Source: Haematococcus lacustris (taxonomy: Eukaryota > Chlorophyta > Chlorophyceae > Chlamydomonadales > Haematococcaceae). Taken from it: a DNA stretch of 64,000 nt. The stretch covers positions 8,874,358 through 8,938,357 of the forward strand of contig JASKMD010000029.1 of NCBI GenBank assembly GCA_030144725.1. Reading direction: 5' to 3'. Both the position numbers and the translations under genes were made by a program. This document shows, piece by piece, positions 7,441 through 62,231 of this stretch (position 1 is the first letter of the stretch; each line of letters starts with the position of its first letter). Under the pieces are notes generated by a model. The model was not told the DNA's origin and did not search any database. It was given only the letters and a program-made list of their open reading frames with translations.

Positions 7441-13820
<6,380 letters not shown>

Positions 13821-14570
13821 GCGCTGCTGCTGCTGTTGCTGCCCTGCTGTTGCTGCTGCCCTGCTGCAACTGCCCTGCTGCAGCTGCTGCTCTGCTGCAG
13901 CTGTTGATGTCCTTTGTGAATGTTTGGTTAGAGGCCTGCAGGCACGAGCACACAACAACATAGTTCAGTATCGTCATCCATGCGTGGCAACCTCGTCAAC
14001 TCACCCCTGCTGGCCTACTCCGCGCCTAGCTCAGCTCCACGCCTGCCTTCCTGCTGTCCTTGAGCTTCGTCGTTACCTGCATGCCTCGCGTGGTCAAACT
14101 CCTGCGTGAAGAAACAACGAACCACAATTACATATCCGGCGTGCGCTAGACCCGTTAGCTGGGGCTAGCCGTTTGTGAACTTTCCTATGCGTACTATTCG
14201 AGGCAGCCTAAGAAAGCGAGTTATTGCGCTACTTACCTCGTTCTTTGCGTCTTTAAGCGCCTTCTTGCCTTCGTCCCCATCGCCCAGCTCCCTCCTTGCG
14301 GAAAAGCTGGCCCCATTCTGCGGGCTGCCCGCGTCGACTGCTGCAGTTAATGGGGTGGCCATGGCTAGCTGCATTTCGGCTGTTGCGTGTCGCGTCAAGT
14401 GTGTTGGTTTGTCCAACCCAATTATGCCCATGTCATTTCATGCTTGCAAGAAATCCACTTCCAGTCCTAACTTCTCAAGCCTACATTAGGTAGTCCTTCC
14501 GCGAAGCCCTTGTACTCATGTAAGGTTCAGCTTAGTCAAATGGTTCAAGTAAGGTGCAAGTTAGACCTGG
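13821..14570. other. Non-repetitive interval, no gene recognised
   Basis: The first ~90 bp are CTG/CAG-rich degenerate satellite edge. The rest is mixed-composition sequence with short overlapping open frames on both strands (up to about 100 codons, for example 14,165-14,431 minus and 14,175-14,489 plus). None resembles a family I recognise, and no splice pattern stands out. A short exon cannot be excluded. Confidence 0.5.
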
Positions 14571-15300: not shown

Positions 15301-15303
15301 AGT

Positions 15304-15745
15304 AACCCTAACCCTAACCCTAACCCTAACCCTAACCCTAACCCTAACCCTAACCCTAACCCTAACCCTAACCCTAACCCTAACCCTAACCCTAACCCTA
15401 ACCCTAACCCTAACCCTAACCCTAACCCTAACCCTAACCCTAACCCTAACCCTAACCCTAACCCTAACCCTAACCCTAACCCTAACCCTAACCCTAACCC
15501 TAACCCTAACCCTAACCCTAACCCTAACCCTAACCCTAACCCTAACCCTAACCCTAACCCTAACCCTAACCCTAACCCTAACCCTAACCCTAACCCTAAC
15601 CCTAACCCTAACCCTAACCCTAACCCTAACCCTAACCCTAACCCTAACCCTAACCCTAACCCTAACCCTAACCCTAACCCTAACCCTAACCCTAACCCTA
15701 ACCCTAACCCTAACCCTAACCCTAACCCTAACCCTAACCCTAACC
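15304..15745. repeat. Telomeric array (CCCTAA)n, about 73 perfect copies
   Basis: About 440 bp of uninterrupted CCCTAA hexamer (TTAGGG on the minus strand). The left edge follows ACACAATGTTAGTAAC. The right edge passes directly into coding sequence of LINE copy A: on the minus strand CAGGAGATC is followed at once by GGTTAGGG. Perfection of the repeat suggests recent telomerase synthesis or an assembled chromosome end rather than an old interstitial relic. For a chromosome extending to the right, CCCTAA is the correct orientation of a left end. Confidence 0.97.
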
Positions 15746-17617
15746 GATCTCCTGGGACATCTGGTAGTAGATACTGTCCTGATTGGCGAGACCGAGGCCG
15801 TGTTTGCGGTGCATGTGTGCTCGCACGCTTTGGCGGCAATCCGGCAATGGGGCGGGGGATTCGCCGTCGGCTTCGTTGCTGAGCCAGGTGTTGGTCTCTT
15901 TCCGTGTGGTCGGGCGGTAGGCTGGGGTGTTGGCAAGCTCTGGGTGTAATGCCGCGTGCTTGGCGAGGGCATCGGCGCCTTCGTTGCCGATAATTCCCGA
16001 GTGGGCCCGGACTTTGTAGAAGTGGATCGTGACGGGGCTATTGATGATGAGGGTAGCGATAGCGGTCAGGATGTCGTTGTGCCTGTGTGTGATGAGCGAC
16101 ATCGGGTTAGCGAGGGCTCGGCGGATTTGGTAGATAGAGCAGAGGCTGTCGGTGGCGATGCGTTTGACCCCCGCTTTGAGTGCCGCGTGTATCGCCGTGA
16201 GTTCCGCCTTGTTGATGGTGTTGCTTTCTGGGTCGTCCAGGGTGACGGTGATGAGGACGTTGGTCTCCGGGATGTAGACCCCCGCCCCGACGCTCGCTGG
16301 GGCTGTCCCCGAGGTCTTAATGCAGCTGCCGTCCGTGTACGCGAGCGTGGCCCATTCGGTGATGGCCATCCGTGGTTGTGTCGTGGAGTGTTGCGTGAGC
16401 AGTTGGTGGCTGCGTTGGTGCCCCGCGGTGGGGAGGTCCCTGTCCAACGGCAAGCGCATGTGTTGTTTGTGGCCGCTGGGGGGTGTGGCCGGCTGGCTTT
16501 GATTCGTTGGTCTCTTGTGGATTGGGTGTGTGTCTCGTTGAGGGTGGAGGGCAGTGGCAGTGCTAGCCAGCCATCCTTGGGGGTTGCCTTTGGTGACGAG
16601 TTGTTGTCCCGCTGCATTCCAGATGACGTAGATGTGGAGCTTGGCGTGCTTGCCTGGATTGGAGCAGGTGGTCTTGGTGGGGGGTATGCTGGCCAGGTGC
16701 TGGCAGTATTCTAGGTAGCGTCTTAGGGTGTCAATGTGTTTGGGGTAGGAGATGCCTTTTTTTCCAGGGATCAGCATGATGGTGGCCATGGCCTCCTCCT
16801 GGGTAGCTGAGTGTATAGCATGGTTGACGCATTTGAGTGCCACCGCATCGTCTGCCGGTACGTTCCATGTGGATAGCCCAGTGTGGCGTACCAGTAGGCA
16901 GTTGTGGTGTGCCCCAAAGGCCGTGTCATTGATGTCAGGGCTCCAGTAGGTAGTGGTCTCCGGACTAACTGTGAGTGGATCAGCCCACCTCTGGACGGTA
17001 CTTGGAAAGCTTCGTGTGGTGTGTAGAGTGGCGAGGGCTTTGTCTTGTGCCGCTCTCATGGGGTAGTGGTTGCTCTGTGTGTCATGTCTCCTTAGGAGGG
17101 CCACCAATTATGTGGCCAGGTCGCGTGCGTGTGGTGTGTGTTGTAACCAAGCGTGTAGGTGTTGGTGTTGTTGTTTTGTTAGTAGGCCTGCTGTGCGGCC
17201 CGACTCGTCGTGAACCGTTACATGTTGCACTAGGTTGTGCTTTGGCATGATGGGCTCCCCCGTGCGAAGGCTCATCGCGGGGGTGGTCATGTGCGGGTGC
17301 AGTTGGAGGAAGGTTTCGCATTTGCCCGTTCCAACGATGTCCGTCTGCGGGTTGATGGGGTAGGTGTGGAAGGTGGCCTTCGAGTGCAGGTTGGTGCACC
17401 GGGGTAGCCAGGTGTGCGGGTCCGGTAATCCTTGCCGGGTGTGGTCCGGCAGGTTCGCGTCAGGCCTCGCATGTTTGTCCTCTAGGATCGTTCTGTTTTC
17501 CTCGTCGTAGATGTTGCGCTTAGCCGTGTAGTCCAGGTGTGCCGTGATGAGCGGTGCCGGTTCAAGGGTGGGGCGCCAGTGTACTCGTATGAGGTCCGAG
17601 TGCGCTGACTGACGCAT
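15746..17617 (-). pseudogene. LINE copy A polyprotein, C-terminal part: RNase H, truncated
   Basis: Same frame as the upstream polyprotein, continuing past the TAG at 17,663. A second nonsense codon (TAA at 17,108-17,110, GAG in copy B) separates a 169-codon linker segment from the RNase H part. RNase H signature residues are all present: Asp in YTDGSCIK, Glu in NKAELTAI, Asp in ATDSLCSI and Asp in GNEGADALAK. Coding sequence stops at the telomeric array, so the zinc-knuckle and restriction-like endonuclease seen in copy B (39,973-40,330) are absent. The RNase H removes RNA from RNA:DNA hybrids during element copying. Confidence 0.88.
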
Positions 17618-17662
17618 GGTCGCCTTGAAGTCGTTGCTGCCAAACTTGCATATAGGGCACAG

Positions 17663-20600
17663 CTAGTAGCTTGCTTCCTTATGTCCTGACAGGAGGGCTT
17701 TCTCAAGGCAGGCTGGGTGGTAGGCTCTCTTGCAGTTGTGGCACATTGGGCTGTCCCCTCTTGGCAGCCAGCATAGCTCACATGTGCATACGTCCTTAGC
17801 CTCTTCCCTACTGATGGTCTCTGTGTGTGTGGGTGTATAGCCTTCTTTTGCACATAGGTGTAATGCCCACCTTTCTATGACTGTAGGTTTCCAGTTCACC
17901 TTGTAGTAGCTTTCCTTATTGATGCCGTCCCATTGCCACCCGTCTATGTTGGTGATGACCTCTTGGTGGTCGAACATGGCCCCAAGTGTGCGCCCTAAGT
18001 CCGTGAGTTTGCACCGGCAGGCTTTATCCACCTTCCAGCTTGAGAGCCCCGGGAGGTCAAGGCCTGGTATGCGCACGATGTCAGCCGGGATTGTGTGGAC
18101 ATGTCTGCCGTCCTTGTGCCGTTTAGTGCCCGCCTTGGGCCGGGTAGGCTCCGTTGGGTTCGGGGGTGTTGCTCGTTGCTCTCTTTGCAGCAGCCGTGAG
18201 CTTGACCTAATGGCCTCGTGGGCTGCGGGCGCCGCTGCTGCCCGCTCCGTCGTGTCTGGTCGCGTTGCGTGCATGACCGCATACGCTTTCATATCCATAT
18301 AGCGGGATCTAGTGTCCGGCACGGCGGGTGTGGGCGCAAGTTCCGTGAGGCCCGCGGCCCATGGTGTGATTTTGCGTTGGTCGGGCGGTAGGGTGAGTGA
18401 TGTGTTGCGGCTGTCCCGGATGGTGCGCGTTGCGGTCGCGTCAGGGCATGTGGGCTGGGCCGCCATGGCCGCAAGTTTGTTCAGGGCAATGATGTGTTTC
18501 TGCTTGACCTTCTTTCCGTACTTCGATGTGAGCATGCTACCCGTGATGATGTGTGTGTTGCCCTCGCAGCTAAGCTCAGATGCGCGGGTGATGCCTAGGC
18601 TTTTGAGGCAGGTGATGCTGGCACTAACGACATCGTGTGCATGAGAACTGTTGGCTTGCGTGATGAGGCGGCCGAGTGTGTGGCATTCCTCGGGGTAGAG
18701 GGGTAGTCCCCCTTCCGTGGCTGACAGCCCGGCTAGTGAGGTATAAACTAGTTGCCGTGCCCTGAGGGTATGGTGGAAGAGGGTGAGCATGCGGTGTCCT
18801 TGAGTGTTGGCCTGGGTATTGAGCCATGTGATTTGTTTGTGTAGCATGCTCCTTGATATGTGGGCGTGCGTCACATCTGTGGACTGGAGGCTGTGTGTGA
18901 GAGCTGTTGTGTTGCGAGCGTGATATTCTTGGGCTGTGGAGCTGATGCCCATGCCTAGTTTTCCGGCGTCTTCTCTGACGATGGCGTTGGGCGTTCCCAG
19001 GGGGAGTCTGAGTTTAAGCTTAACGCATTGATTGATGGACCTGTCATACAGCTCAAGGTCCCCTGGGGTGCAGGGCACGGCGCAGAAGCTGTAGGCTAGA
19101 CTGGGTATGATGGCCGTGCGGATGATGTGTATGGCCTGTCTAGCGCTAGCAAAGGAGCGTCTGAGTCTCTCTAATTTTTGGCGTAGCTGGGTAATCATAG
19201 CGGTGTGTTGTGGTTTCCAGTCCAGCGTCATGGTGATGAGCACACCCAGGTAGGTGAAGGGTGAGGTCGGGCGGTGGTATGTGACGGATTTCCCTTGTAA
19301 GCTTACAGTTTGGAGTTGTTGGCGGGCCCGCTTATCCGCTTCGGCCGCGTTGCTGCACATGCCAGTTTCGACCGAGTGATGAAGCGCCGCGGTTGCGAGG
19401 GTTTTACTGTGTGAGATGACGAGGTGTCCCCAGTCCGAGAAAGCCGAGAGTTTGTCCGCTTGACAACGGAGGTTTCGGAGTGTGTTGCAAAGGATTGCTA
19501 TGTCGTCGGCATAGTCTATGCTGCTGACGATGGCGCGCTCTCCGCTGTCAGCCGTCGCTGATTTGAATTTATAGCCCCTCGCGCCCACCTGCAGCCAGCG
19601 CAGGAGGGGTTCGATATAGATGAGGAACAGGAAGGGTGAGAGTGAGTCGCCCTGGATCGTGCCCCGGTCTACGGGTACCGGGTCGGTGGGGCCGTAGGGA
19701 GTTCTGAAGCGCGTTGTAGCGCCCGTGTAAAGGTCCTTCACTGCGTCAGTCGCGTCTGTGGGAAAGCCTAGGTCGTGCATGATCCATAGTAGTTTGTCCT
19801 GGCAGGTGGTGTTGAACGCACTTGTAAAGTCCACCAGGAGCGCGTAGATATCTGCCTTAGCCAGCTTAGCATCCTCAAGGGCCATGACAAGCATCTGTAG
19901 CTGTTGCGTAGTGTTCCTATGGGAGCGGAACCCTGCTTGGTTCTTGCTGAGCATCCCATTGGCTTCAGCATACTCAGAAAGTATCTTAGTTATGAGGCTG
20001 GTCCACAGCTTGTAAACGGTGTTGGCTAGGCCCACTGGCCTGTAAGAGTTAAGGTCCGTTTCCTGGCCCTTGTCTTTGTAAAGCAGGCATGTGTCACTTG
20101 TTTTCCACGTGGTTGGTGTGCAGCCTGTAGCCCACATGATGATGAACAGCTGGTGTATGGTGTCCCTCATCTCCCATGGCAGCATCTTGATGATCTCGTT
20201 CTCAATGCCGTCTGGTCCTGGGGCTTTGCCCCCCGACAACCTACTGAGGCATTCCTGAAAGCCTGCCTTGTCCATGATGGCTGTGTGTAACCAATGTACG
20301 TTTTGGCAGGTGTGCATCGTGAAAGGGTCGTCCGCTTTGGCGCGGGCCCACGGGTAGTTTCTTGTCTGCGTGTTTGTGTAGTGGCCAGTTTTGGGGGTCG
20401 GCGGCGCCAGCTTCGTTCCATAGGCATCGGTAATTATCCGGTTTAGGTCGGTCGGGGCTGTGCATACCCTGTTGGTGATGGGGTCGGCTAGCGCCTGCAG
20501 GCCTTTGTGATCAGTGCGGGACGGGCGTAGGATGTATTTATTTGCTTTCTTAGGCTGGGTGCTGATTAGTTGTTGCATTCTGACACGGGCTTGTGCGATG

Positions 20601-23600
20601 GCGAGTGCGGAGTCGTCGTCGTCTAGCTTGTGAATTTGGTCGCGGTACGAGTTGGTCAGCCGGGCGAGCGCGGCCTGCACGTGGTTTTCGGTTGTGTCGT
20701 CGCCCTGGCGCGCTTGCACCGCCTCCCTTGTTTCCGCATTTGTCGTATCAGTAGCTGGAATAAGTTCATCGATGGTTGGGTGCACGTTGTTTTGTTTGAA
20801 AAGCAATCTAGCCTTCCGGCTGAGTTCTCTGGTGGTTTTGAGCTTTCTGCCTAGTGCCAGTCTAATCCTACACATTGTCCTGCGTTGGTAGTGCTGGCCT
20901 CCCCTTGTTAGGGTCTTAGTGTTGCAAGTCTTCATAGCTGTCGTCCTGCAGGTTTGCAGTAGGGTTGTGAGCATGGTAGCTGCGGTGTCTACAGCTTCCC
21001 TGGCTGGGAGTCCTGCCACCAGCGTCAGGCGCTGTGGTTGTTGGGGGTTGGCCTTGTCGATTGTGGTCAGGAAGTGGATAGCATCAGTGTACATGGGAGC
21101 AAGGTATGCTGTCAGGTGTGCATGCAGTTGTGGGGCACCTGAGCTGGGTTGTTGCACTGCCAGGCGGTAGGCTTCCCTGTCCTCATTGGTAATGGGGGTG
21201 GTAAGGATGGTGTGGCTGTGCTTCTGAGATTTTTGTGGTGCTGCCAGGTCTATGCCCAGTCGGGCTGTACTCAGTGTGGCGGTGAGTGGCCTGTGGTCAC
21301 TAAGAAATGCGTGTGTGTCGACGTGCGTGCGGTGTTCAGGGCCGTGTCGCGCGTCGCGCGTCAGGATGGCGTCGATGCGGCTGTTGCAGTGCGGTTGTTG
21401 GTAGGTCCAGGCCCGGTCGCCGGAATCAGCTTCGGACAGGCGCATCTCTGTGGCGAACTCCCTCATCATGTTGTCTTGTATGTATTCGGTGTGTTCGGAG
21501 CGATCCTCTGTCCTCATCGTGGCGTTGATATCTCCCGCCAGGATGAGTGAGCCGGGCAGGTGTCCGGCGGCTGCTCGTATGTGTTCTTGCATCTTTCTCC
21601 TTAGTGGGATCGCGTCGTCGTTGTTCCCCGAGGGCCAGTACGTGGCGACAAGTGTGAGCTCTTCGCTTTGCCGTTGGCGGAGGCTCAGGATGACGCAGCG
21701 GGTGTTTACATCCGCATCTATGCACGGTTGTATCATGGTAGCTTGCATCTGGATGGCTAGATCATGTCTGATGCCAATGAGGACTTCACTGTGGCCTTCG
21801 TGGCGGTGGACAGTATAGTTGGGCATAACCCTCTTCAGCCAGCCAGAGCTAGGGTTGTTGCTCCTGGGTTGGGTCATGGTTTCAGTAAGGATCAGGATGT
21901 CCGGGCTTTGGCTGTGTACAAGGTTTAGAACTTCGTTTCTAGATCTGTGTAGGCCTCTGACGTTGAAGGTTGTGAGGGTGATGTGTTGCCGGTTGGGGGT
22001 GGGTGGCGGTGGGGGGCTGTGATGTTGGTTCGTACCAAGGTCGATGTCGGGCGTGGATTTAGGTGTCTCGTCTATGGTGGAGGCTGGCACAGTGTTGTGG
22101 GTCTTAGCGGTGGGTTTGCAAAGATATTTGAACATGAGGGTTTGAGTGTGTGTGTCGTTACCGTGTCTCTTGGTGACTCGAACGCGCTTTTTGGCAGCGT
22201 CGGTGGCGTTGTCGAGGGGCGTAGTGGGTCGATGAATATGTGGCGTTGTTTGCGGACGGAGAGTGACCGTGGGTGTGTCCCGGCGCTGTCGCAACCGGGT
22301 AGGCTCGCCGTGTGGGAGGGTGCCCTCTGCTGTCGCCCTGCGCTTGCTATCGGTTGTGCAGCTGGTCTCGGCGTTAGTGGTGGTCACGTGCAAGGGGCCA
22401 GGGGTCTCTCTTGCCTCTGTGTGGTCTGTAGTAAGGTCTATTAGGTCCAGGTGATCTCGGAAGTGTGCTGCAAGCGCTGATGGGGTGGTGGCCTCCAGTG
22501 GGTCCGCTATCCAGATCTCCCTCCTAATGAATCTTGTGTGTCTCACGTCGCCTGTGCAGATAGTGAGGATGTTCCCTTGAAGGCTGCTCCAGTCGTCAGG
22601 TGTAGAGAGTGGTTTAGGCACCCGGTTGAATGAGTCCAGTTGGTGCCAACCATGTGGTGTGTGCTTGATGGCAGTAGCGTGTTGGTGTGATAGTAGGATG
22701 ACAGCCGTGTGTGTTGCGCCGGTGCTTGTTATAGCGTTAGTGATCGTCTCAGGGGTGATACTCTGGGTGGGTAGGTAGGTTGAGGCTGGATGCAGGTACA
22801 TGTGCATCTCATGGTGTTTGCGATGAAGGTAGTGATTCAGTGTGTCAGATGAGAACTTGCCTTTCGCATGGTAGATATGGTCGGTTTTGAGGGTTTGGAT
22901 TGTGTGCCCTGCAGCTCGTGCTTCTTGTGCTAAGTGTTGTAGGTGCTCTGCTAGCTGCTTGCAGTGGCTGATGACTGCGTGGTAGTCAATACATTTTTCC
23001 CCCATGGCCATGTTGAAAGCATGTACTAGGCAGCACTCTTCGTATTGCCTTTCCATGTAGCCATGGTCTAGGTTACGGGCCGTTACTGTGGGGTGGGCCG
23101 TTACTGTGGGGTCGACTGCTGTGGCGTTGTGACCGTGTCCTGTTTGTTCCACATGGCTGATGATGTGATGGATGTCCTTTTCAGCGCACATGCGCATCTG
23201 TTCCCGTGAGCGGGTGTTGGGCGTGATGACAAAGAGTTGATGCATAGTCCGCATAGTTGCAGTAGGGATGTGAGAGAGGGGCGTCGGTGTTCTTTCCATG
23301 GAGTCCAGTAGGTTCCATGCGCCGTCAATGCACTTCATGGCCATGCTATGGCCTAGCTTTTTGCACAAAAATGTGTGTGTACCGTATTGGCCAGCGAGGA
23401 TTCCCAGGTTGTCAGCAGACCAGTCACTGGGTTGGTTGAGTTGGGCAATGCTCTGAACTGCTAGGCCGTAGTGGACACGTAAGTACATCTCAATGACTTC
23501 GTCGGAATAGCCGTCAACACCTCTTGCCATTAACCATGCGCCGCGCTCAAAGTGATCAGTAAACTGAAGGAGCCTGTTCTCATAAAATAAGTCTATGTCT

Positions 23601-25789
23601 TGCATGGTGACCCATTCATGTCCCGCTGCATTGTTCAAACAATAAACCTGGCACGCGGAGCTATGCCTGGCCTGCATGTAGTGCTCGTTGGTTGGGCCGG
23701 GGTTCGCTTCAACATCCCCAGCGGCGAGCAGTAGCCAGGCCATGTATATGAGGGAAATAGTGGAGTAAACTGTGGTGATGACGCCCAACCACTGTGTAGC
23801 CGTAGCCAGCAGGCAAGAGGGTAGCATGGTATTGTGCACACCCTGCTTGCTAGTGATGCCTATCTTATAGATAGTGTAGCGATGCAACGTTGTGTTGTAG
23901 TGGTGGACGATAAGGGAGGCCCTTGGCCCACTATGGGTGAAGTGTCCATGTGTAGTCCAGTTGTCCATGCACACAGAGAGACAAAGTATAGCGTTGTGTC
24001 GTGGGGCGCTGCCATCCAGGTATGGGCAGAGGGGGAGGGCTGACATAACAATGACACCCTTCCACCTACGCGCTCTCTTGATATGTTTGAGCAAGCACGC
24101 TTTGGATTGGGAGGGGGTGGTAACCTGGGTGCGTTGGGAAGGGGTACGGAGATGGAGCCCGAGCATGCTAAAGAGAGCTATGGTGATGTGAATGAGATAC
24201 GCCTTGCCCCCCACCACTTTGTTCAGATCAAGAGGCAACACGTCAATATATAGGTCATGTATGGATGGTCCATGGGGTATCGGCCAGCCATGTAGCTGCT
24301 CACATGGCTGCTCATCCTCCGCTCCATTGGTGTGGGCATGGGGGTACCTGGAGCGGGGCGGCATGCCAGCGTGTGGTGCATACACAGCTGGTCCTGGCAG
24401 CATGCTGGGCTGTGCACACGGCTGCTCAACCTCTGTCTCGTTGGTGTAGGCATGGGGGTACCTGGAGCATGGCGGCGGGTCAGCATGTGGTGTATACTTG
24501 GCTGGTCCTGGCAGCGTGCTGAGCTGATCACAAGGCTGCTCCTGGGCGCCATGTCTTATGCCGGCCTGCATGTCAACATGAGTGGTTGGCATCACTGTAG
24601 CGACTGGCTGGTCATGCAAGGCTGTAGCAAGCAGGGCTGGCAGGTGTTGGTAAGGCTGAGCGCCATGTCTTGTGCCGGCCTGCATGTCAACATGAGTGGT
24701 TGGCATCACTGTAGCGGCTGGCTGGTCATGCAAGGCTGTAGCAAGCAGGGCTGGCAGGTGCTGGTAAGGCTGAGCGCCATGATTTGTGCCGGCGTGCATG
24801 TCAACATGAGTGGTTGGCATCACTGTAGCGGCTGGCTGGTCATGCAAGGCTGTAGCAAGCAGGGCTGGCAGGTGGTGGTAAGGCTGAGCGCCATGTCTTG
24901 CGCCGGCCTGCATGTCAACATGAGTGGTTGGCATCACTGTAGCGGTTGGCTGGTCATGCAGGGCTGTAGCAAGCAGGGCTGGCAGGTGCTGGTAAGGCTG
25001 AGCGCCATGTCTTGTGCCGGCCTGCATGTCAACATGAGTGGTTGGCATCACTGTAGCGGCTGGCTGGTCATGCAAGGCTGTAGCAAGCAGGGCTGGCAGG
25101 TGGTGGTAAGGCTGAGCGCCATGTCTTGCGCCGGCCTGCATGTCAACATGAGTGGTTGGCATCTCTGTAGCAGCTGGCTGGTCATGCAAGGCTGTATCAG
25201 TCAGGGCCGGCGGGTGGTGGTAAGACTGAGCGCCATGTCTTATACAGGCATGCAAACAGGGGTATGTGTTCATTTGCCCTGGTTGTGTATCCTTCAATTG
25301 TGCCTTCACAGGAGGCCTTTGTTTGAGTGGGGGAACATAGATGTTGAGAATAGCATCTGAGATGGGGTTGCATGTTGGCAGCAGAACATTAGTGGTTGCA
25401 GTCCGATGGTGGAGGGCATAGCACTGCTTGTTCAAGAACCTGGGCATAGCACTGCTTGCATTCGCGGGCATTTGCCCTGGGGACGAGATAAGGCTAGGCT
25501 GGGTGTACCAGCTTTCGCGCAGACTTGGGCCTGTGCCCGGAGCCAACCTGTCTGCACGGTCACCGATTGTGGTGCCTTCTGAGTGGATTGACAAGCGGCT
25601 GGGGGTGGCTTTGGTAGGCCAACCCCCGAGCGCGCCCCAACTCCACCCAGTGCAGTACAGGGTCAAGACAGCAAATAGGAGGAACAACGCAGGCCATCGT
25701 CTACCTGCTGCGCCTCCTATCGCCTCGTCTTGACCTCGCTCAGGGTCGGACGAAACTTCGCTCATTCTGCTCCTTTTCGGACGCTGCAC
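17663..25789 (-). CDS. LINE copy A polyprotein: N-terminal repeats, 2A motif, two Josephin-like proteases, AP endonuclease, reverse transcriptase
   Basis: A 2,708-codon open frame. Residues ~29-55 form a hydrophobic segment. Residues ~170-420 hold 38-residue repeats. GDVEANPGP at 691-699 is a 2A-type motif. A first cysteine-protease-like domain has Cys713 in ACQVYCLNN, followed by a GHSMAMK..W....D motif; a second has Gln915, Cys920 (ECCLVHAFN) and His/Trp/Asp in HATAIKH..GWHQLDS. An AP endonuclease spans ~1270-1505 (TFNVRGL, DILILTET, GDINA, SDHRPL). Reverse transcriptase spans ~1800-2130 (KAPGPDG, LLVDFTSAFN, YADD at 19,504-19,515). A PHD-like Cys/His finger begins near 2668 and is cut by a TAG that replaces a Trp codon conserved in copy B. 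I chose the first ATG; MSEVSS a few codons later is an alternative. Role: target-primed reverse transcription of the element. Confidence 0.9.
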   Translation of the reverse strand: MQRPKRSRMSEVSSDPERGQDEAIGGAAGRRWPALFLLFAVLTLYCTGWSWGALGGWPTKATPSRLSIHSEGTTIGDRADRLAPGTGPSLRESWYTQPSLISSPGQMPANASSAMPRFLNKQCYALHHRTATTNVLLPTCNPISDAILNIYVPPLKQRPPVKAQLKDTQPGQMNTYPCLHACIRHGAQSYHHPPALTDTALHDQPAATEMPTTHVDMQAGARHGAQPYHHLPALLATALHDQPAATVMPTTHVDMQAGTRHGAQPYQHLPALLATALHDQPTATVMPTTHVDMQAGARHGAQPYHHLPALLATALHDQPAATVMPTTHVDMHAGTNHGAQPYQHLPALLATALHDQPAATVMPTTHVDMQAGTRHGAQPYQHLPALLATALHDQPVATVMPTTHVDMQAGIRHGAQEQPCDQLSTLPGPAKYTPHADPPPCSRYPHAYTNETEVEQPCAQPSMLPGPAVYAPHAGMPPRSRYPHAHTNGAEDEQPCEQLHGWPIPHGPSIHDLYIDVLPLDLNKVVGGKAYLIHITIALFSMLGLHLRTPSQRTQVTTPSQSKACLLKHIKRARRWKGVIVMSALPLCPYLDGSAPRHNAILCLSVCMDNWTTHGHFTHSGPRASLIVHHYNTTLHRYTIYKIGITSKQGVHNTMLPSCLLATATQWLGVITTVYSTISLIYMAWLLLAAGDVEANPGPTNEHYMQARHSSACQVYCLNNAAGHEWVTMQDIDLFYENRLLQFTDHFERGAWLMARGVDGYSDEVIEMYLRVHYGLAVQSIAQLNQPSDWSADNLGILAGQYGTHTFLCKKLGHSMAMKCIDGAWNLLDSMERTPTPLSHIPTATMRTMHQLFVITPNTRSREQMRMCAEKDIHHIISHVEQTGHGHNATAVDPTVTAHPTVTARNLDHGYMERQYEECCLVHAFNMAMGEKCIDYHAVISHCKQLAEHLQHLAQEARAAGHTIQTLKTDHIYHAKGKFSSDTLNHYLHRKHHEMHMYLHPASTYLPTQSITPETITNAITSTGATHTAVILLSHQHATAIKHTPHGWHQLDSFNRVPKPLSTPDDWSSLQGNILTICTGDVRHTRFIRREIWIADPLEATTPSALAAHFRDHLDLIDLTTDHTEARETPGPLHVTTTNAETSCTTDSKRRATAEGTLPHGEPTRLRQRRDTPTVTLRPQTTPHIHRPTTPLDNATDAAKKRVRVTKRHGNDTHTQTLMFKYLCKPTAKTHNTVPASTIDETPKSTPDIDLGTNQHHSPPPPPTPNRQHITLTTFNVRGLHRSRNEVLNLVHSQSPDILILTETMTQPRSNNPSSGWLKRVMPNYTVHRHEGHSEVLIGIRHDLAIQMQATMIQPCIDADVNTRCVILSLRQRQSEELTLVATYWPSGNNDDAIPLRRKMQEHIRAAAGHLPGSLILAGDINATMRTEDRSEHTEYIQDNMMREFATEMRLSEADSGDRAWTYQQPHCNSRIDAILTRDARHGPEHRTHVDTHAFLSDHRPLTATLSTARLGIDLAAPQKSQKHSHTILTTPITNEDREAYRLAVQQPSSGAPQLHAHLTAYLAPMYTDAIHFLTTIDKANPQQPQRLTLVAGLPAREAVDTAATMLTTLLQTCRTTAMKTCNTKTLTRGGQHYQRRTMCRIRLALGRKLKTTRELSRKARLLFKQNNVHPTIDELIPATDTTNAETREAVQARQGDDTTENHVQAALARLTNSYRDQIHKLDDDDSALAIAQARVRMQQLISTQPKKANKYILRPSRTDHKGLQALADPITNRVCTAPTDLNRIITDAYGTKLAPPTPKTGHYTNTQTRNYPWARAKADDPFTMHTCQNVHWLHTAIMDKAGFQECLSRLSGGKAPGPDGIENEIIKMLPWEMRDTIHQLFIIMWATGCTPTTWKTSDTCLLYKDKGQETDLNSYRPVGLANTVYKLWTSLITKILSEYAEANGMLSKNQAGFRSHRNTTQQLQMLVMALEDAKLAKADIYALLVDFTSAFNTTCQDKLLWIMHDLGFPTDATDAVKDLYTGATTRFRTPYGPTDPVPVDRGTIQGDSLSPFLFLIYIEPLLRWLQVGARGYKFKSATADSGERAIVSSIDYADDIAILCNTLRNLRCQADKLSAFSDWGHLVISHSKTLATAALHHSVETGMCSNAAEADKRARQQLQTVSLQGKSVTYHRPTSPFTYLGVLITMTLDWKPQHTAMITQLRQKLERLRRSFASARQAIHIIRTAIIPSLAYSFCAVPCTPGDLELYDRSINQCVKLKLRLPLGTPNAIVREDAGKLGMGISSTAQEYHARNTTALTHSLQSTDVTHAHISRSMLHKQITWLNTQANTQGHRMLTLFHHTLRARQLVYTSLAGLSATEGGLPLYPEECHTLGRLITQANSSHAHDVVSASITCLKSLGITRASELSCEGNTHIITGSMLTSKYGKKVKQKHIIALNKLAAMAAQPTCPDATATRTIRDSRNTSLTLPPDQRKITPWAAGLTELAPTPAVPDTRSRYMDMKAYAVMHATRPDTTERAAAAPAAHEAIRSSSRLLQREQRATPPNPTEPTRPKAGTKRHKDGRHVHTIPADIVRIPGLDLPGLSSWKVDKACRCKLTDLGRTLGAMFDHQEVITNIDGWQWDGINKESYYKVNWKPTVIERWALHLCAKEGYTPTHTETISREEAKDVCTCELCWLPRGDSPMCHNCKRAYHPACLEKALLSGHKEASY
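23693..23719 (-). other. 2A-type ribosome-skipping motif (copy A)
   Basis: Encodes GDVEANPGP, matching the canonical D-V/I-E-x-N-P-G-P consensus, preceded by the hydrophobic MAWLLLAA run typical of active 2A regions. In 2A peptides the ribosome skips the final Gly-Pro bond, releasing the upstream product and continuing downstream. Here it would separate the N-terminal repeat/membrane part from the protease-endonuclease-RT part. Confidence 0.85.
24548..25260 (-). repeat. 114-bp in-frame repeats in the LINE copy A N-terminal region
   Basis: Six to seven units of exactly 114 bp (starts at 24,548, 24,662, 24,776, 24,890, 25,004, 25,118, 25,232), each encoding 38 residues with the words RHGAQPYHHLPALL, HDQPAAT and MPTTHVDMQAG. 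Downstream (24,250-24,540) are about three units of a second 38-residue type (PHAHTN, EQPC, LPGPA). The shared period and an in-between unit (RHGAQEQPCDQLSTLPGPA) suggest the two types are related. Confidence 0.92.
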
Positions 25790-25852
25790 CGGGTCCTGCT
25801 GCCCGTTTAAGCTGCCGTCGTTACTAGAGAGCGTAGTCGTGAGTTGAAGTTA

Positions 25853-26624: not shown

Positions 26625-27124
26625 NNNNNNNNNNNNNNNNNNNNNNNNNNNNNNNNNNNNNNNNNNNNNNNNNNNNNNNNNNNNNNNNNNNNNNNNNNNN
26701 NNNNNNNNNNNNNNNNNNNNNNNNNNNNNNNNNNNNNNNNNNNNNNNNNNNNNNNNNNNNNNNNNNNNNNNNNNNNNNNNNNNNNNNNNNNNNNNNNNNN
26801 NNNNNNNNNNNNNNNNNNNNNNNNNNNNNNNNNNNNNNNNNNNNNNNNNNNNNNNNNNNNNNNNNNNNNNNNNNNNNNNNNNNNNNNNNNNNNNNNNNNN
26901 NNNNNNNNNNNNNNNNNNNNNNNNNNNNNNNNNNNNNNNNNNNNNNNNNNNNNNNNNNNNNNNNNNNNNNNNNNNNNNNNNNNNNNNNNNNNNNNNNNNN
27001 NNNNNNNNNNNNNNNNNNNNNNNNNNNNNNNNNNNNNNNNNNNNNNNNNNNNNNNNNNNNNNNNNNNNNNNNNNNNNNNNNNNNNNNNNNNNNNNNNNNN
27101 NNNNNNNNNNNNNNNNNNNNNNNN
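26625..27124. other. Assembly gap, exactly 500 N
   Basis: A 500-base run of N. The identical length of the second gap (54,924-55,423) indicates a fixed-size placeholder, so the true distance and the linkage across it are unknown. Confidence 0.98.
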
Positions 27125-27481
27125 GGTTCTGCCGCACGCCTACAGGGTCCTACGACATTCGCCCACAGGGTCCTGCCGCACGCCTACAGGGTCCTACGAC
27201 ACAGGTCTACAGGGTTCTGCCGCACGCCTACAGGGTCCTGCGACATGAGTCTACAGGGTCCTGCCGCACGCCTACAGGGTCCTGCGACATGAGTCTACAG
27301 GGTTCTGCCGCACGCCTAGAGGGTCCTACGACACACGTCTACAGGATTCTGCCGCACGCTTACAGGGTCCTGTGACACACGTCTACAGGGTCCTGCCGCA
27401 CGCCTTCAGGGTCCTGCGACATGAGTCTACAGGGTCCTGCCGCACGCCTACAGGGTCCTGCGACATGAGTCTACAGGGTCC
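27125..27481. repeat. ACAGGGTCCTG minisatellite, left of LINE copy B
   Basis: Alternating units ACAGGGTCCTGCCGCACGCC and ACAGGGTCCTGCGACATGAG, with TACGACACACGTCT variants. The same family resumes at 40,738, right after LINE copy B, so B was inserted into this array. It also occurs at both outer ends of the palindrome. Confidence 0.94.
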
Positions 27482-27884
27482 GGGTTTGCGAAAACCGACG
27501 AAGTTTTCTGAAGCACGCACGCATCCATCGCGAGAACAGTGAACACCATTGAAACCAGCTCGTTATTTGACGCCGTGAGATATGTGGACCGCCACTTGGA
27601 CACCCTGGACGCTCGCCGCGGCCAGCCACTGCAAACTCGCAGTGCCGAGTAAGCCTCGTAAAACATACATATGCCTGTGCATAGCGTTGGTCCTGATCGC
27701 CCTGCAGCTGAACTATCGCTGCTTTGGCCTGGGGCCACGAAGGACGCAGGCACACTCATCGCTAATGAGCAGCTCCAACCCAACCTATCGCGTTGAATAC
27801 GAGAGGTTTCATGTTCTGCCTGCCTGGACTGCAATGCCTGACTGTTGTGAGCTGAAGGGCACAATGAGCCTCAGCAAGGGTGTG

Positions 27885-28135
27885 CACTCGGAGAAACAAT
27901 CGGAGACACCATTTGGAGATAACTCGGAGAAACATTCGGAGTCATTATTTGGAGAGAACTCGGAGACCACAACTCGGAGACACAACTCGGAGACCACAAC
28001 TCGGAGACCACAACTCGGAGACCACAACTCGGAGACACAACTCGGAGACACCATTTGGAGATAACTCAGAGACCATAACTCGGAGACACAACTCGGAGAC
28101 ACAACTCGGAGACAACTCGGAGAATAAACAACTTG
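27885..28135 (+). repeat. ACTCGGAGACCACA minisatellite in LINE copy B
   Basis: Short units of the form ACTCGGAGACCACA, ACTCGGAGACACA and CATTTGGAGATA. Its variable unit lengths explain the frame change between the N-terminal segment (27,582-28,064) and the main frame. The region is not present in copy A. Confidence 0.88.
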
Positions 28136-28371
28136 GTGAAGGATGGAAATCATCACAAACTATTCGGAGACAGCTAGGGGCTTGCCAACCTTGGTGGTCC
28201 CAGCTGAGACAAACGAAAGTCATCACCATTTGGAGACGCATGGTCCGGGCCAACACCGGCTGGGCATGCAACACCTCACTGCCCCTGGTCCTTACACCAT
28301 GCAGGCCCCTACCTCCACACTCAGAACACACTCCAGAGGTACACCTCAACGCACCTGAAATGCAGCACAGA

Positions 28372-29015
28372 CCTGCACATGCTGGCCTGCTGCCCCGCAC
28401 CAGGTACCTACACGCCCACACCAACGAGCTTGAGGATATGCAGCCGTGTGAACAGCCCAGCACGCTGCCAGAACCAGACATGTATGCACCACATGCTGGC
28501 CTGCTGCCCCACACCAGGTACCCACACGCCCACAACAGTGAGCCGGAGGATGCGCAGCCATGTGAACAGCCCAGCACACGGCCAGGACCAGCCACGCTTG
28601 CACCACATGCTGGCCTGCTGCCCTGCACCAGGTACCCCTATGCCCACACCAACAACCCAGAGGATGAGCAGCCTTGTGATCAGCTCAGCACGCTGCCAGG
28701 ACCAGCCAAGTATACACCACATGCTGACCCGCTGCCATGCACCAGGTACCCCCATGCCAACACCAAAGAGACGGAGGATGAGCAGCTGGGTGAACAGCCC
28801 AGCATGCGGCCAGGGCCAGCCATGCATGCTGGCATGCCGCCCCGCACCAGGTACCCCCATGCCTACACCAACGAGACAGAGGATGAGCAGCCGTGTGCAC
28901 AGCCCAGCATGCTGCCAGGACCAGCTGTGTATGCACCACACGCTGGCATGCCGCCCCGCTCCAGGTACCCCCATGCCCACACCAATGGAGCGGAGGATGA
29001 GCAGCCATGTGAGCA
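28372..29015 (+). repeat. 114-bp in-frame repeats, second type, in LINE copy B
   Basis: About five to six units of about 114 bp encoding 38 residues with the words HAGLLP, TRYPHAHTN, EQPS and LPGPA. Copy A has only about three such units followed by six of the other 38-residue type, so the N-terminal repeat composition differs between copies. Confidence 0.88.
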
Positions 29016-29592
29016 GCTACATGGCTGGCCGATACCCCATGGACCATCCATACATGACCTATATGTTGACGTGTTGCCTCTTGATATAAACAAAGTGGTG
29101 GGGGGCAAGGCGTATCTCATTCACATTACCATAGCTCTCTTTAGCATGCTCGGGCTCCATCTTTATACCCCTCCCCAACGCACCCAGGTTACCACCCCCT
29201 CCCAATCCAAAGCGTGCTTGCTCAAACATATCAAGAGAGTGCGTAGGTGGAAGGGTGTCATTGTTATATCAGCCCTCCCCCTCTGCCCATACCTGGACGG
29301 CAGCGCCCCACGGCACAACGCTCTACTTTGTCTCTCTGTGTGCATGGACAACTGGACTACACATGGACACTTTACCCATAGTGGGCCAAGGGCCTCCCTT
29401 ATCGTCCACCACTACAACACAACGTTGCATCGCTACACTACCTATAGGATAGACATCACTAGCAAGCAGGTTGTGCACAATACTATGCTACCCTCTTGCT
29501 TGCTGACTACGGCTACACAATGGTTGGGCGCCATCACCACAGTTTACTCCACTATTGCCCTCATTTACATGGCCTGGCTACTGCTCGCCGCT

Positions 29593-29619
29593 GGGGATAT
29601 TGAAGCGAACCCCGGCCCA
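29593..29619 (+). other. 2A-type ribosome-skipping motif (copy B)
   Basis: Encodes GDIEANPGP after MAWLLLAA. It differs from copy A by a single V-to-I change that the 2A consensus allows. Conservation of every consensus residue in a copy that is otherwise accumulating nonsense mutations indicates that the ancestral element carried it. Confidence 0.85.
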
Positions 29620-32600
29620 ACCAACGAGCACTACATGCAGGCCAGACATAGCTCCGCGTGCCAGGTTTATTGTTTGAACAATGCAGCGGGACATGAATGG
29701 GTCACCATGCAAGACATAGACTTATTTTATGAGAACAGACTCCTTCAGTTTACTGATCAGTTTGAGCGCGGCGCATGGTTAATGGCAAGAGGTGTTGACG
29801 GCTATTCCGACGAAGTCATTGAGATGTACTTACGTGTCCACTACGGCCTAGCAGTTCAGAGCATTGCCCAACTCAACCAACCCAATGACTGGTCTGCTGA
29901 CAACCTGGGAAACCTCGCCGGCCAATACGGTACACACACATTCTTGTGCAAAAAGCCAGGCCATAGCATGGCCATGAAGTGCATTGACGGCGCATGGAAT
30001 CTACTGGACTCCATGGAAACAACACCGACGCCCCTCTCTCACATCCCTACTGCGACTATGCGGACTATGCATCAACTCTTTGTCATCACGCCCAACACCC
30101 GCTCACGGGAACAGATGCGCATGTGCGCTGAAAGGGACATCCATCACATCATCAGCCATGTAGAACAAAAAGGACACGGTCACAACGCCACAGCAATCGA
30201 CCCCGCTTACCCCGAAGTAACGGCCCGTAACCTAGACCCCAGCTACATGGAAAGGCAATACGACGAATGCTGCCTAGTACACGCTTTCAACATGGCCATG
30301 GGAAAAAAATGTATTGACTACCACGCAGTCATCAGCCACTGCAAGCAGCTAGCCGAGCACCTACAACACTTGGCACAAGAAGCACGAGCTGCAGGGCACA
30401 CAATCCAAACCCTCAAAACCGACCATATCTACCATGCTAAAGGCAAGTTCTCATCTGACACACTGAATCACTACCTTCATCGCAAACACCATGAGATGCA
30501 CATGTACCTGCATCCAGCCTCAACCTACCTACCCACCCAGAGTATCACCCCTGAGACGATCACTAACGCTATAACAAGCACCGGCGCAACACACACTGAG
30601 GCTGTCATCCTTCTATCACACCAACACGCTACTGCCATCAAGCACACACCACATGGTTGGCACCAACTGGACTCATTCAACCGGGTGCCTAAACCACTCT
30701 CTACACCTAACGACTGGAGCAGCCTTCACGGGAACATCCTCACTATCTGCACAGGCGACGTGAGACACACAAGATTCATTAGGAGGGAGATCTGGATAGC
30801 GGACCCACTGGAGGCCACCACCCCTTCAGCGCTTGCAGCACACTTCCGAGATCACCTGGACCCGATAGATCTTACCACAGACCACACAGAGGCAAGAGAG
30901 ACCCCTGGCCCCTTGCACGTGACCACCACTACCGCCGAGACCAGCTGCACAACCGATAGCACGCGCAGGGCGACAGCAGAGGGCATCCCCCCACACGGCG
31001 AGCCTACCCGGCTGCGACAGCGCCGGGACACACCCACGGTCACTCTCCGTCCGCAAACAACGACTCGTATCCATCGACCCACTACGCCCCTCGACAACGC
31101 CACCGACGCTGCCAAAAAGTGCGTTCGAGTCACCAAGAGACACGGTAACGACACACACACTCAAACCCTCATGTTCAAATATCTTTGCAAACCCACCGCT
31201 AAGACCCACAACACTGGGCCAGTCTCCACCATAGACGAGGCACCTAAATCCACGCCCGACATCGACCTTGGTACGAACCAACATCACAGCCCCCCACCGC
31301 CACCCACCCCCAACCGGCAACACATCACCCTCACAACCTTCAACGTCAGAGGCCTACACAGATCTAGAAACGAAGTTCTAAACCTTGTACACAGCCAAAG
31401 CCCGGACATCCTGATCCTTACTGAAACCATGACCCAACCCAGGAGCAACAACCCTAGCTCTGGCTGGCTGAAGAGGGTTATGCCCAACTATACTGTCCAC
31501 CGCCACGAAGGCCACAGTGAAGTCCTCATTGGCATCAGACATGATCTAGCCATCCAGATGCAAGCTACCATGATACAACCGTGCACAGATGCGGATGTAT
31601 ATACCCGCTGCGTCATCCTGAGCCTCCGCCAACGGCAAAGCGAAGAGCTCACACTCGTCGCCACGTACTGGCCCTCGGGGAACAACGACGACGCGCTCCC
31701 AGTACGGAAGAAGATGCAAGAGTATATACGAACAGCCACTGGGCACCTGCCCGGCTCACTCATCCTGGCGGGAGATATCAACGCCACGATGAAAACAGAG
31801 GATCGCTCCGAACACACCGAATACACACAAGACACCATGATGAGGAAGTTCGCCACAGAGATGCGCCTGTCCGAAGCTGACTCCTGCGACCGGGCCTGGA
31901 CCTACCAACAACCGCACTGCAACAGCCGCATCGACGCCATACTAACGCGCGACGCAAGACACGGCCCCGAGCACCGCACGCACGTCGACACAAACGCATA
32001 TCTTAGTGACCACAGACCACTCACCGCCACACTGAGTACAGCCCGACTGGGCATAGACCTGGCAGCCCCACAAAAACCTCAGAAGCATAGCCACACCATC
32101 CTCACCACCCCCATATCCAATAAGGACAGGGAAGCCTACCGCCTGGCAGTGCAACAACCCAGCTCAGGTGCCCCACAACTGCATGCACACCTGACAGCAT
32201 ACCTTGCTCCCATGTACACCGATGCTATCCACTTCCTGACCACAATCGACAAGGCCAACCCCCAACAACCACAGCGCCTAACGCTAGTAGCAGGCCTCCC
32301 AGCCAGGGAAGCTATAGACACCGCAGCTACCATGCTCACAACCCTACTGCAAACCTGCAGGACGACAGCTATTAAGACTTGCAATACTAAGACCCTAACA
32401 AGGGGAGGCCAACACTACCAACGCAGGACCATGTGTAGGATTAGACAGGCACTAGGCAAAAAGCTCAAAACCACCAGAGAACTCAGCCGGAAGGCTAGAG
32501 TGTTTTTCAAGCAAAACAACGTGCACCTAACCATCGATGAACTAATCCCAGAGACAGATACGACAAATGCGGAAACGAGGGAGGCGGTGCAAGCGCGCCA

Positions 32601-35600
32601 GGGCGACGACACAACCGAAAACCACGTGCAGGCCGCGCTCGCCCAGCTGACCAACTCCTACCGCGACCAAATTCACAAGCTAGACGACGACGACTCCGCA
32701 CTCGCCATCGCCCAAGCCCGTGTCAGAATGCAACAACTAATAAGCACCCAGCCTAAGAAAGCGAACAAATACATCCTACGCCCGTCCCGCACCGATCACA
32801 AAGGCCTACAGGCACTAGCCGACCCCATCACCAACAAGATATGCACGGCCCCGGCCGACCTGAACCGGATAATTACCGATGCCTATGGAACGAAGCTGGC
32901 GCCGCCGACCCCCAAAACTGGCAACTACACAAACACGCAGACTCGAAACTACCCGTGGGCTCGCGCCAAAGCAGACGACGCCTTCACACTGCACGCCTGC
33001 CAAAACGTACATTGGTTACACACAGCCATCATGGACAAGGCAGGCTTCCAGGAATGCCTCAGTAGGCTGTCAGGGGGCAAAGCCCCAGGACCAGACGGCA
33101 TTGAGAACGAGATCATCAAGATGCTGCCGTGGGAGATGAGGGACACCATACACCAGCTGTTCATCATCATGTGGGCTACAGGCTGCACACCAACCACGTG
33201 GAAGACCAGTGACACATGCCTGCTCTACAAAGACAAAGGGCAAGAAACGGACCTTAACTCCTACAGGCCAGTGGGCCTAGCCAACACCGTTTACAAGCTG
33301 TGGACCAGCCTCATAACTAAGATACTTACTGAGTATGCTGAAGCCAATGGGATGCTCAGCAAGAACCAAGCAGGGTTCCGCTCCCATAGGAACACTACAC
33401 AACAGCTACAGATGCTTGTCATGGCCCTTGAAGATGCTAAGCTGGCTAAGGCAGATATCTACGCGCTCCTGGTCGACTTCACCAGTGCGTTCAACACCAC
33501 CCGCCAGGACAAACTACTATGGATCATGCACGACCTAGGCTTCCCCACGGACGCGACGGACGCGGTGAAGGACCTATACACGGGCGCTACAACGCGCTTC
33601 AGAACTCCCTACGGCCCCACCAACCCGGTACCCGTAGACCGGGGCACCATCCAGGGCGACTCACTCTCACCCTTCCTGTTCCTCATCTACATCGAACCCC
33701 TACTGCGCTGGCTGCAGGTGGGCGCGAGGGGCTATAAATTCAAATCCGCGACGGCTGACAGCGGAGAGCGCGCCATCGTCAGCAGCATTGACTATGCCGA
33801 CGACATAGCAATCCTCTGCAACACACTCCGCAACCTCCGCTGCCAAGCGGACAAACTCTCAGCCTTCTCCGACTGGGGTCACCTCGTCATCTCACACAGT
33901 AAAACCCTCGCAACCGCGGCGCTTCATCACTTGGTTGAAACTGGCATGTGCAGCAACGCGGCCGAAGCGGACAAGCGGGCCCGCCAACAACTCCAAACCG
34001 TCAGCCTGCAAGGGAAACCCGTCACCTACCACCGCCCGACCTCACCTTTCACCTACCTGGGAGTGCTCATCACCATGACGCTGGACTGGAAACCACAACA
34101 CACCGCTATGATTACCCAGCTACGCTAAAAACTAGAGAGACTCAGACGCTCCTTTGCTAGCGCTAGACAGGCCATACACATCATCCGCACGGCCATCATA
34201 CCCAGTCTAGCCTACAGCTTCTGCGCCGTGCCCTGCACCCCAGGGGACCTTGAGCTGTATGACAGGTCCATCAATCAATGCGTTAAGCTTAAACTCAGAC
34301 TCCCCCTGGAACGCCCAACGCCATCGTCAGAGAAGACGCCGGAAAACTAGGCATGGGCATCAGCTCCACAGCCCAAGAATATCACGCTCGCAACACAACA
34401 GCTCTCACACACAGCCTCCAGTCCACAGATGTGACGCACGCCCACATATCAAGGAGCATGCTACACAAACAAATCACATGGCTCAATACCCAGGCCAACA
34501 CTCAAGGACACCGCATGCTCACCCTCTTCCACCATACCCTCAGGGCACGGCAACTAGTTTATACCTCACTAGCCGGGCTGTCAGCCACGGAAGGGGGACT
34601 ACCCCTCTACCCCGAGGAATGCCACACACTCGGCCGCCTCATCACGCAAGCCAACAGTTCTCATGCACACGATGTCGTTAGTGCCAGCATCACCTGCCTC
34701 AAAAGCCTAGGCATCACCCGCGCATCTGAGCTCAGCTGCGAGGGCAACACACACATCATCACGGGTAGCATGCTCACATCGAAGTACGGAAAGAAGGTCA
34801 AGCAGAAACACATCATTGCCCTGAACAAACTTGCGGCCATGGCGGCCCAGCCCACATGCCCTGACGCGACCGCAACGCGCACCATCCGGGACAGCCGCAA
34901 CACATCACTCACCCTACCGCCCGACCAACGCAAAATCACACCCTGGGCCGCGGGCCTCACGGAACTTGCGCCCACACCCGCCGTGCCGGACACTAGATCC
35001 CGCTATATGGATATGAAAGCGTATGCGGTCATGCACGCAACGCGACCAGACACGACGGAGCGGGCAGCAGCGGCGCCCGCAGCCCAGGAGGCCATTAGGT
35101 CAAGCTCACGGCTGCTGCAAAGAGAGCAACGAGCAACACCCCCGAACCCAACGGAGCCTACCCGGCCCAAGGCGGGCACTAAACGGCACAAGGACGGCAG
35201 ACATGTCCACACAATCCCGGCTGACATCGTGCGCATACCAGGCCTTGACCTCCCGGGGCTCTCAAGCTGGAAGGTGGATAAAGCCTGCCGGTGCAAACTC
35301 ACGGACTTAGGGCGCACACTTGAGGCCATGTTCGACCACCAAGAGGTCATCACCAACATAGACGGGTGGCAATGGGACGGCATCAATAAGGAAAGCTACT
35401 ACAAGGTGCACTGGAAACCTACAGTCATAGAAAGGTGGGCATTACACCTATGTGCAAAAGAAGGCTATACACCCACACACACAGAGACCATCAGTAGGGA
35501 AGAGGCTAAAGGTGTATGCACTTGCGAGCTGTGCTAGCTACCAAGAGGCGACTGCCCTACGTGCCACAACTGCAAGAGGGCCTACCACCCAGCCTGCCTT

Positions 35601-36110: not shown

Positions 36111-36117
36111 ACAGTAG
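36111..36117 (+). repeat. Target-site duplication ACAGTAG, left copy
   Basis: ACAGTAG occurs here and at 38,371-38,377, on either side of the 2,253-bp insertion. Removing the insertion and one copy (2,260 bp) rejoins the LINE reading frame exactly (RTVGLLTKQQHQ in place of the copy A sequence RTAGLLTKQQHQ). Confidence 0.9.
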
Positions 36118-62144: not shown

Positions 62145-62231
62145 CGCTGATCGACTGGGGTGTCAACCACACGAACCCTAGCCAGCAACTTACTGGAGTC
62201 CTATCGCGCGTCAGCGCGTGGGCCCATAACA

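Follow-up and report, generated by a model that had tools for sequence, protein, structure and literature searches.

Josephin-type enzymes such as ataxin-3 and Josephin-1/2 (PF02099; MEROPS C86) remove ubiquitin, and the titles of the PDB fold matches obtained in this work agree with this. In ataxin-3 the characteristic residues of the Josephin domain are Gln9, Cys14, His119, Trp130 and Asn134. Here we describe two Josephin-type domains that are encoded in tandem, at 22463-23695 on the minus strand, by copy A of a non-long terminal repeat (non-LTR) retrotransposon, three copies of which (A, B and C) lie within the window, that is, the whole 64-kb stretch of Haematococcus lacustris DNA that was analysed. 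The closest protein match was labelled Haematococcus lacustris and was 94% identical across the query region. The domains resemble the known Josephin deubiquitinases in profile match and fold, and domain 2 shares with human Josephin-2 the Gln five residues before the Cys, the His, and the Asp 15 residues after the His. They differ in being arranged in tandem within a retrotransposon protein, and in that domain 1 of copies A and B has its Gln seven residues before the Cys (-7).

Kojima and Fujiwara reportedly described, in 2005, Dualen/RandI long interspersed nuclear elements (LINEs) of Chlamydomonas that carry a cysteine protease. Dualen/RandI elements combine an apurinic/apyrimidinic-type (APE) endonuclease with a restriction-like endonuclease (RLE) and also have RNase H (PMC4640811), and the locus described here is likewise a Dualen-type non-LTR retrotransposon with both APE and RLE. 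The APE endonuclease was found in the family with Pfam, together with an R2-like RLE that has a zinc knuckle and PD..ExK; RNase H was seen as Pfam RNase_H in P0025, a related copy, and in P0040, and by homology in copy B. When the PDB was searched with the reverse transcriptase (RT) sequence of P0025, R2 (4.3e-22) came ahead of L1 (4.7e-12), which fits a Dualen-type element. In the present element the protease is identified as a tandem Josephin pair placed after a 2A motif, which would be a difference from Dualen/RandI.

Motifs of the 2A/StopGo type occur in trypanosome L1Tc and in sea urchin elements, where D(V/I)ExNPGP likewise stands in frame inside a LINE protein (PMC4981915); in our element, however, the motif stands directly ahead of a Josephin domain. 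NeSL and Utopia LINEs encode, ahead of the RT, a Ulp1-like protease, which also belongs to a ubiquitin-like-protein protease family (PMC4640811), and a relative of our element, P0112, has Ulp1 as well; this is nevertheless a different protease family, and NeSL and Utopia belong to RLE-encoding clades. A deubiquitinase-type cysteine protease on a transposable element is also described for Helentrons (PMC4067079), but it is OTU-like and the Helentron is a rolling-circle DNA transposon. Among the literature matches listed, no title or opening of an abstract described a Josephin domain in a transposable element (an ataxin-3 paper among them concerns primate retrocopies), and no literature was found that combined Haematococcus, non-LTR and LINE. 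A LINE with a protease is already known; the Josephin identity, the old tandem and the link to 2A look new, though the 2005 Dualen paper may describe part of this.

Identity of the tandem Josephin-type domains

The first-pass annotation of this DNA had proposed two tandem cysteine-protease domains with Josephin-like spacing at 22630-23661. These coordinates cover both catalytic sets, and the whole domains span about 22463-23695. The pair and the parts of the three copies that bear on it are as follows.

17663-25849, minus strand: copy A main open reading frame (ORF), 2,728 aa from stop to stop (ORF translation, Pfam)
23693-23737, minus strand: copy A 2A/StopGo-type motif WLLLAAGDVEANPGP, residues 705-719
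23153-23695, minus strand: copy A Josephin-type domain 1, about residues 719-899 (C733, H834, W845, D849; Gln at -7)
22463-23065, minus strand: copy A Josephin domain 2, about residues 929-1129 (Q935, C940, H1057, W1068, D1072)
27868-34128, plus strand: copy B main ORF, 2,086 aa, covering the 2A motif, the two Josephin domains, APE and RT (ORF, Pfam)
29575-29619, plus strand: copy B 2A/StopGo-type motif, GDIEANPGP
29617-30159, plus strand: copy B Josephin-type domain 1, ends approximate
30238-30843, plus strand: copy B Josephin domain 2, ends approximate
55424-56551, plus strand: copy C, His-Trp-Asp half of Josephin 1 plus complete Josephin 2 (homology)

The copy A ORF runs from a pre-2A protein through the 2A motif, Josephin 1, Josephin 2, APE and RT to a weak PHD-like finger, within which its stop codon falls. 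The Pfam Josephin profile (gathering score 26) matched the ORFs of copy A (42.6 bits, E 7e-11) and copy B (45.1 bits, E 1.2e-11), in two stretches each. When scanned alone, domain 2 gave a Pfam Josephin match in 10/10 members (best 5.1e-12; 40.9 bits for copy A), and domain 1 in eight of nine members at E up to 10 (best 1.7e-8), the copy A domain 1 fragment scoring 16.3 bits, under the cutoff. In a PDB sequence search domain 2 matched human Josephin-2 at 5.9e-5, its other four matches being capsid proteins at E 0.15 or worse, and all five matches to domain 1 were Josephins, if weak ones (E 0.25-1.5). The two domains are also related to one another (profile comparison probability 95.5, E 1.6e-8, 19% identity). 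When the domain 2 profile was used to look for Josephin proteins that stand alone (candidates between 0.55 and 1.75 times as long as the profile), the sole match was P0044, itself a tandem pair.

The first-pass annotation had also suggested structure prediction, and when an AlphaFold2 model of the domain pair was used in a structure search, Josephin structures ranked first. Domain 2 has a Josephin fold in this predicted structure, whereas the predicted fold of domain 1 by itself could not be separated from C39-type papain-like domains, Z differences below 1 being ties. It can be seen that the bacterial Josephin-like structures PcJOS, BpJOS and PaJOS were among the fold matches, with PcJOS top-ranked for domain 1; among viral structures, the best match to the pair was a Josephin-named Orpheovirus protein (E 6e-5). 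Up to E 10, the Pfam listings of copies A and B contained no OTU family (HMMER filters drop most matches above about 0.1), and the OTU identity that had been put forward as an alternative is rejected on this basis. We conclude that Josephin identity is strong for domain 2 and weaker for domain 1, and that the assignment first made from residue spacing is supported by profile, by PDB sequence search in the case of domain 2, and by fold in the case of the pair. We refer to domain 1 as 'Josephin-type' because its Gln lies at -7, not -5, in copies A and B.

In both domains the Trp and the Asp follow the His by 11 and 15 residues respectively, and both catalytic sets, including the +11 Trp and +15 Asp, were found in copies A and B as described. 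The Gln at -5 of domain 2 (Q935/C940) was equally borne out. For domain 1 the annotation was right that no Gln stands at -5, but it had missed the Gln at -7, which is common to relatives outside Haematococcus; simple loss of Gln from domain 1 is rejected for that reason. Within the ten rows of the first-domain clade described below, Gln lies at -7 in seven and at -5 in three (P0035, P0040 and P0041). As first reported, copy B retains both domains and copy C retains domain 2; copy C also has the half of domain 1 that carries the His, Trp and Asp. Domain 1 of copy C is interrupted by a run of 500 N (54924-55423), and because this gap directly precedes the retained half, its Cys cannot be counted as lost.

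Conservation was assessed in a Haematococcus set of 82 proteins (80 from database searches and two window ORFs), in which a joint profile found two Josephin domains in 50 proteins, one in 11, four in 1 and none in 20. Residues were counted in hits with a domain E of 1e-10 or better, short or cross-matching hits having been dropped (3/56 for domain 1 and 3/64 for domain 2). The catalytic Cys, His and Asp, whose substitution across family members the annotation had singled out as worth checking, were invariant along with the Trp in domain 1 (C 43/43, H 51/51, W 52/52, D 52/52) and along with the Gln and Trp in domain 2 (Q 55/55, C 55/55, H 61/61, W 61/61, D 61/61); these counts under-represent decayed copies, as annotated gene models favour intact copies and weaker hits fall outside the count. 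Of the 181 columns of domain 1, 19 were as conserved as this, and of the 206 of domain 2, 38. Over 35 aligned Josephin domains C, H and W were present in 35/35 and D in 33/35, the relative P0094 being without the domain 2 Asp.

The ratio of nonsynonymous to synonymous substitution (dN/dS) between copies A and B was 0.27 for domain 1 (bootstrap 0.08-0.83) and 0.16 for domain 2 (0.03-0.54), and stood at 0.54 (0.25-1.61) for the pre-2A region, 0.90 (0.16-3.24) for the short inter-domain linker and 0.64 (0.29-2.42) for the stretch after the pair, the bootstrap intervals of the Josephin domains and these flanking stretches overlapping. Values for APE, the stretch preceding RT, and RT were 0.26, 0.16 and 0.04, and domain 2 compared with copy C gave 0.42 (A/C) and 0.22 (B/C).

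Translation of the window in all six frames showed two D(V/I)ExNPGP-type motifs, one in copy A and one at the corresponding place in copy B; that of copy A ends at Pro719, directly ahead of Josephin 1. Within the Haematococcus set the motif lies no more than 70 residues upstream of the first-domain Cys motif in 43 of 44 cases, P0074 being the exception. Of 23 distinct contexts of the motif, 15 have a mean hydropathy above 1 over the 20 residues that precede it. This motif ahead of the pair, the dual-endonuclease plan and the occurrence in distant relatives were all absent from the first-pass annotation.

Occurrence of the pair in related elements

Relatives were drawn from the best 120 of 172 hits of an RT search; 50 of these carried no Haematococcus label (RT identity 45-55%) and, together with P0044, make up a non-Haematococcus set of 51 proteins. 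Pfam's own Josephin label was present in 5 of the 50 RT relatives, namely P0093, P0094, P0114, P0117 and P0128, of which P0117 (26.1) and P0128 (26.8) barely exceed the cutoff of 26. Half of the 50 are long enough to show the Josephin region (25 proteins with RT start at 899 or later, a limit set after seeing the data), and the other 25 have too little protein ahead of the RT to judge (RT start at 681 or earlier). Profiles built from Haematococcus only found Josephin in 17 of the 25 long-enough relatives, the threshold being a whole-protein E of 1e-3 or better with the domain 2 profile (E-values for the set of 51 sequences). With the joint profile the figure was 21 of 25, two of them showing the C-terminal part only, but this profile is partly circular: its training set comprised 7 Haematococcus proteins and 17 others, and 16 of the latter reappear among the 21. 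Its matches outside its own training rows were P0099, P0100, P0110, P0113 and P0125. Of the remaining four long-enough relatives, P0112 has Ulp1, and in P0087, P0103 and P0121 the joint profile found no Josephin; Pfam matches to P0103 and P0121 include no protease of another kind either. Since distant relatives carry Josephin domains too, we reject the possibility that the pair is peculiar to the Haematococcus family; the tandem to which the annotation had drawn attention is itself real.

With P0044, P0117 and P0094, the Haematococcus domain 1 profile gives the better score to the first domain, and the Haematococcus domain 2 profile to the second (for P0044, 66.5 vs 26.1 bits and 96.3 vs 20.8 bits respectively). 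In a tree of the 35 Josephin domains a single clade (98/97) united the first domains of P0044, P0117 and P0094 with those of seven Haematococcus rows, and two long branches meet inside it; the second domains did not form one clade, and the P0120 tandem stood separate. As the first domains fall in one supported clade, the tandem would predate the split of these lineages, and we judge from the domain tree that it is old. On the RT tree the presence of Josephin is scattered, at least partly because many of the proteins are too short to show it.

Outside Haematococcus the 2A motif was seen in 2 of the 51 proteins. One of these, P0095, has two 2A motifs with Josephin sequence after each, the first partial; the other, P0112, has a 2A motif and, further on, a Ulp1 protease (Peptidase_C48, 1.3e-22), with no Josephin match. 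Between the PHD finger and RNase H, a PCIF1-type domain (PF12237) was found in five of six scanned non-Haematococcus relatives (P0128, P0095, P0112, P0121 and P0103; three above and two just below the Pfam cutoff), and a diverged version of this region is present in two aligned Haematococcus copies. A working adenine methyltransferase was considered and set aside: a pattern search for an NPPF-like motif, which we take to mark a working PCIF1-type enzyme of this kind, gave no match in the 50 non-Haematococcus RT relatives.

Possible roles of the pair

The most likely role of the pair is that of a putative deubiquitinase shielding the element's own proteins, which is the simplest reading of the kept catalytic residues, the free N-terminus that 2A would provide and the Ulp1 of one relative. 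We lean, with some reserve, towards a scheme in which this Dualen-type LINE uses StopGo and then a Josephin pair, or domain 2 at least, to remove ubiquitin and thereby spare the element. The ribosome would skip at NPG/P and leave the upstream repeat-rich product behind, and the N-terminus of the replication protein would then be the start of Josephin 1, with Pro719 as residue 1 and the catalytic C733 as residue 15. The pair, domain 2 at least, would deubiquitinate in cis the RT/endonuclease protein or its ribonucleoprotein or, as an alternative target, host factors in trans at the target, and the element would in this way escape removal that depends on ubiquitin. Domain 1 has a longer Gln-to-Cys loop; its substrate may be a different one, or it may serve more to bind ubiquitin than to cut it.

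Some of the observations would suit other readings. The pair might be a protease for polyprotein processing, with cuts in the protein of the element itself, for example in the variable stretches that separate Josephin 2, APE and RT. The great length and many domains of the main ORF would suit this, as would the loose conservation of the linkers on either side of Josephin 2 (the dN/dS of 0.90 and 0.64 given above, with wide intervals). Among viral papain-like proteases, some combine polyprotein processing with deubiquitination, and this can be counted on the same side. We regard processing as the main rival, albeit an unlikely one: Josephin enzymes are known as ubiquitin proteases, and the 2A motif can itself make the front separation, so that processing at the front of the pair is unnecessary and the balance, in our judgement, tilts to ubiquitin. 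The altered Gln-to-Cys loop of domain 1 and the loss of the domain 2 Asp from P0094 would suit ubiquitin-binding or structural modules in which catalysis is not needed; this is improbable, since every Haematococcus hit counted has an unchanged Cys, His, Trp and Asp, in domain 1 as in domain 2.

It is less probable still that the domains trim ubiquitin irreversibly in the manner of bacterial Josephin-like clippases, disabling it locally instead of recycling it. The fold matches to PcJOS, BpJOS and PaJOS, with PcJOS at the top for domain 1, would be in keeping with this, and irreversible cleavage by bacterial Josephin-like enzymes is named in a title cited in PMC12751079. However, fold similarity is uninformative on the position of cleavage, and the small Z differences are ties. 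We give hardly any credence to a chance capture from the host that left the pair without a role. Retrotransposons do capture host sequence, but the pair is shared by lineages with an RT identity of about one half, dN/dS between copies A and B is below 1 in both domains, and the catalytic sets are invariant.

Going beyond the single locus, it is possible, though we would stop short of calling it probable, that deubiquitinases of their own are built into the replication machinery of a whole lineage of algal dual-endonuclease LINEs, in the form of an ancient tandem with one canonical and one re-tuned active site, to which StopGo would give a free N-terminus in Haematococcus. The usual picture of a LINE is that of an RNA-binding protein and an RT with endonuclease. 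If the deubiquitinase reading is correct, a conserved paired deubiquitinase would mean that escaping or using the host ubiquitin system is part of the element's replication, the 'cysteine protease' reported for Dualen elements would gain a testable job, and ubiquitin would be a battleground between LINE and host. As distant relatives also carry Josephin domains, the element may tamper with the host ubiquitin system. The position of 2A ahead of Josephin 1 suggests that one reason why some LINEs keep 2A is the natural N-terminus that it gives to a downstream enzyme.

Remaining parts of the three copies and their surroundings

The other parts of the copies are listed here.

24542-25241, minus strand: copy A pre-2A 38-aa (114-bp) repeats, 6.1 copies (repeat scan, translation)
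23720-24232, minus strand: copy A pre-2A non-repetitive segment, about residues 540-710
21293-21970, minus strand: copy A APE endonuclease, Exo_endo_phos, residues 1294-1519 (Pfam)
19241-20053, minus strand: copy A reverse transcriptase, RVT_1, residues 1933-2203 (Pfam)
15746-17662, minus strand: copy A remainder past the stop codon (homology), cut short by a TTAGGG array ahead of the RLE zinc knuckle
34302-36155, plus strand: copy B continuation in a different frame (homology)
38371-40617, plus strand: copy B RNase H to RLE segment, matching P0025 2155-2901 (homology)
62524-63999, plus strand: copy C continuation, APE and beyond (homology)

Tandem repeats of 38 aa (114 bp) are present in the pre-2A regions of both copies A and B, those of copy B at 28376-29017 (5.7 copies), and their unit sequences differ. 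Residues ~540-710 of copy A resemble by eye the distant copy P0035, and a hydrophobic stretch lies at the end of this segment. In copy B, the continuation and the RNase H-RLE segment are separated by an intervening stretch at 36156-38370. A Copia-like ORF (58023-62162, minus strand; labelled by eye from its translation) sits between the two pieces of copy C.

The assembly has two gaps of exactly 500 N each, one between copies A and B (26625-27124) and the one that cuts domain 1 of copy C. A 44-bp repeat (GGTCCTGCCGCACGCCTACAG...) of one kind occurs at 27125-27481, right after the first gap and upstream of copy B, and again behind the copy B stop codon at about 40700-41100; the repeat ahead of copy B is perhaps a remnant of the 3' end of another element.

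Copy A is broken off between RNase H and RLE at a telomere-repeat array, a perfect run of 73.8 TTAGGG-type repeats at 15303-15745 that directly adjoins it. The orientation of this array is compatible with a broken end healed by telomere addition; as 15.3 kb of other sequence lies beyond it, it would be an interstitial telomere or an assembly join. Very long minisatellite arrays were also seen at 3119-7367 and 7442-13903 (22-bp unit, 193 copies; GCT/CAGG mosaic).
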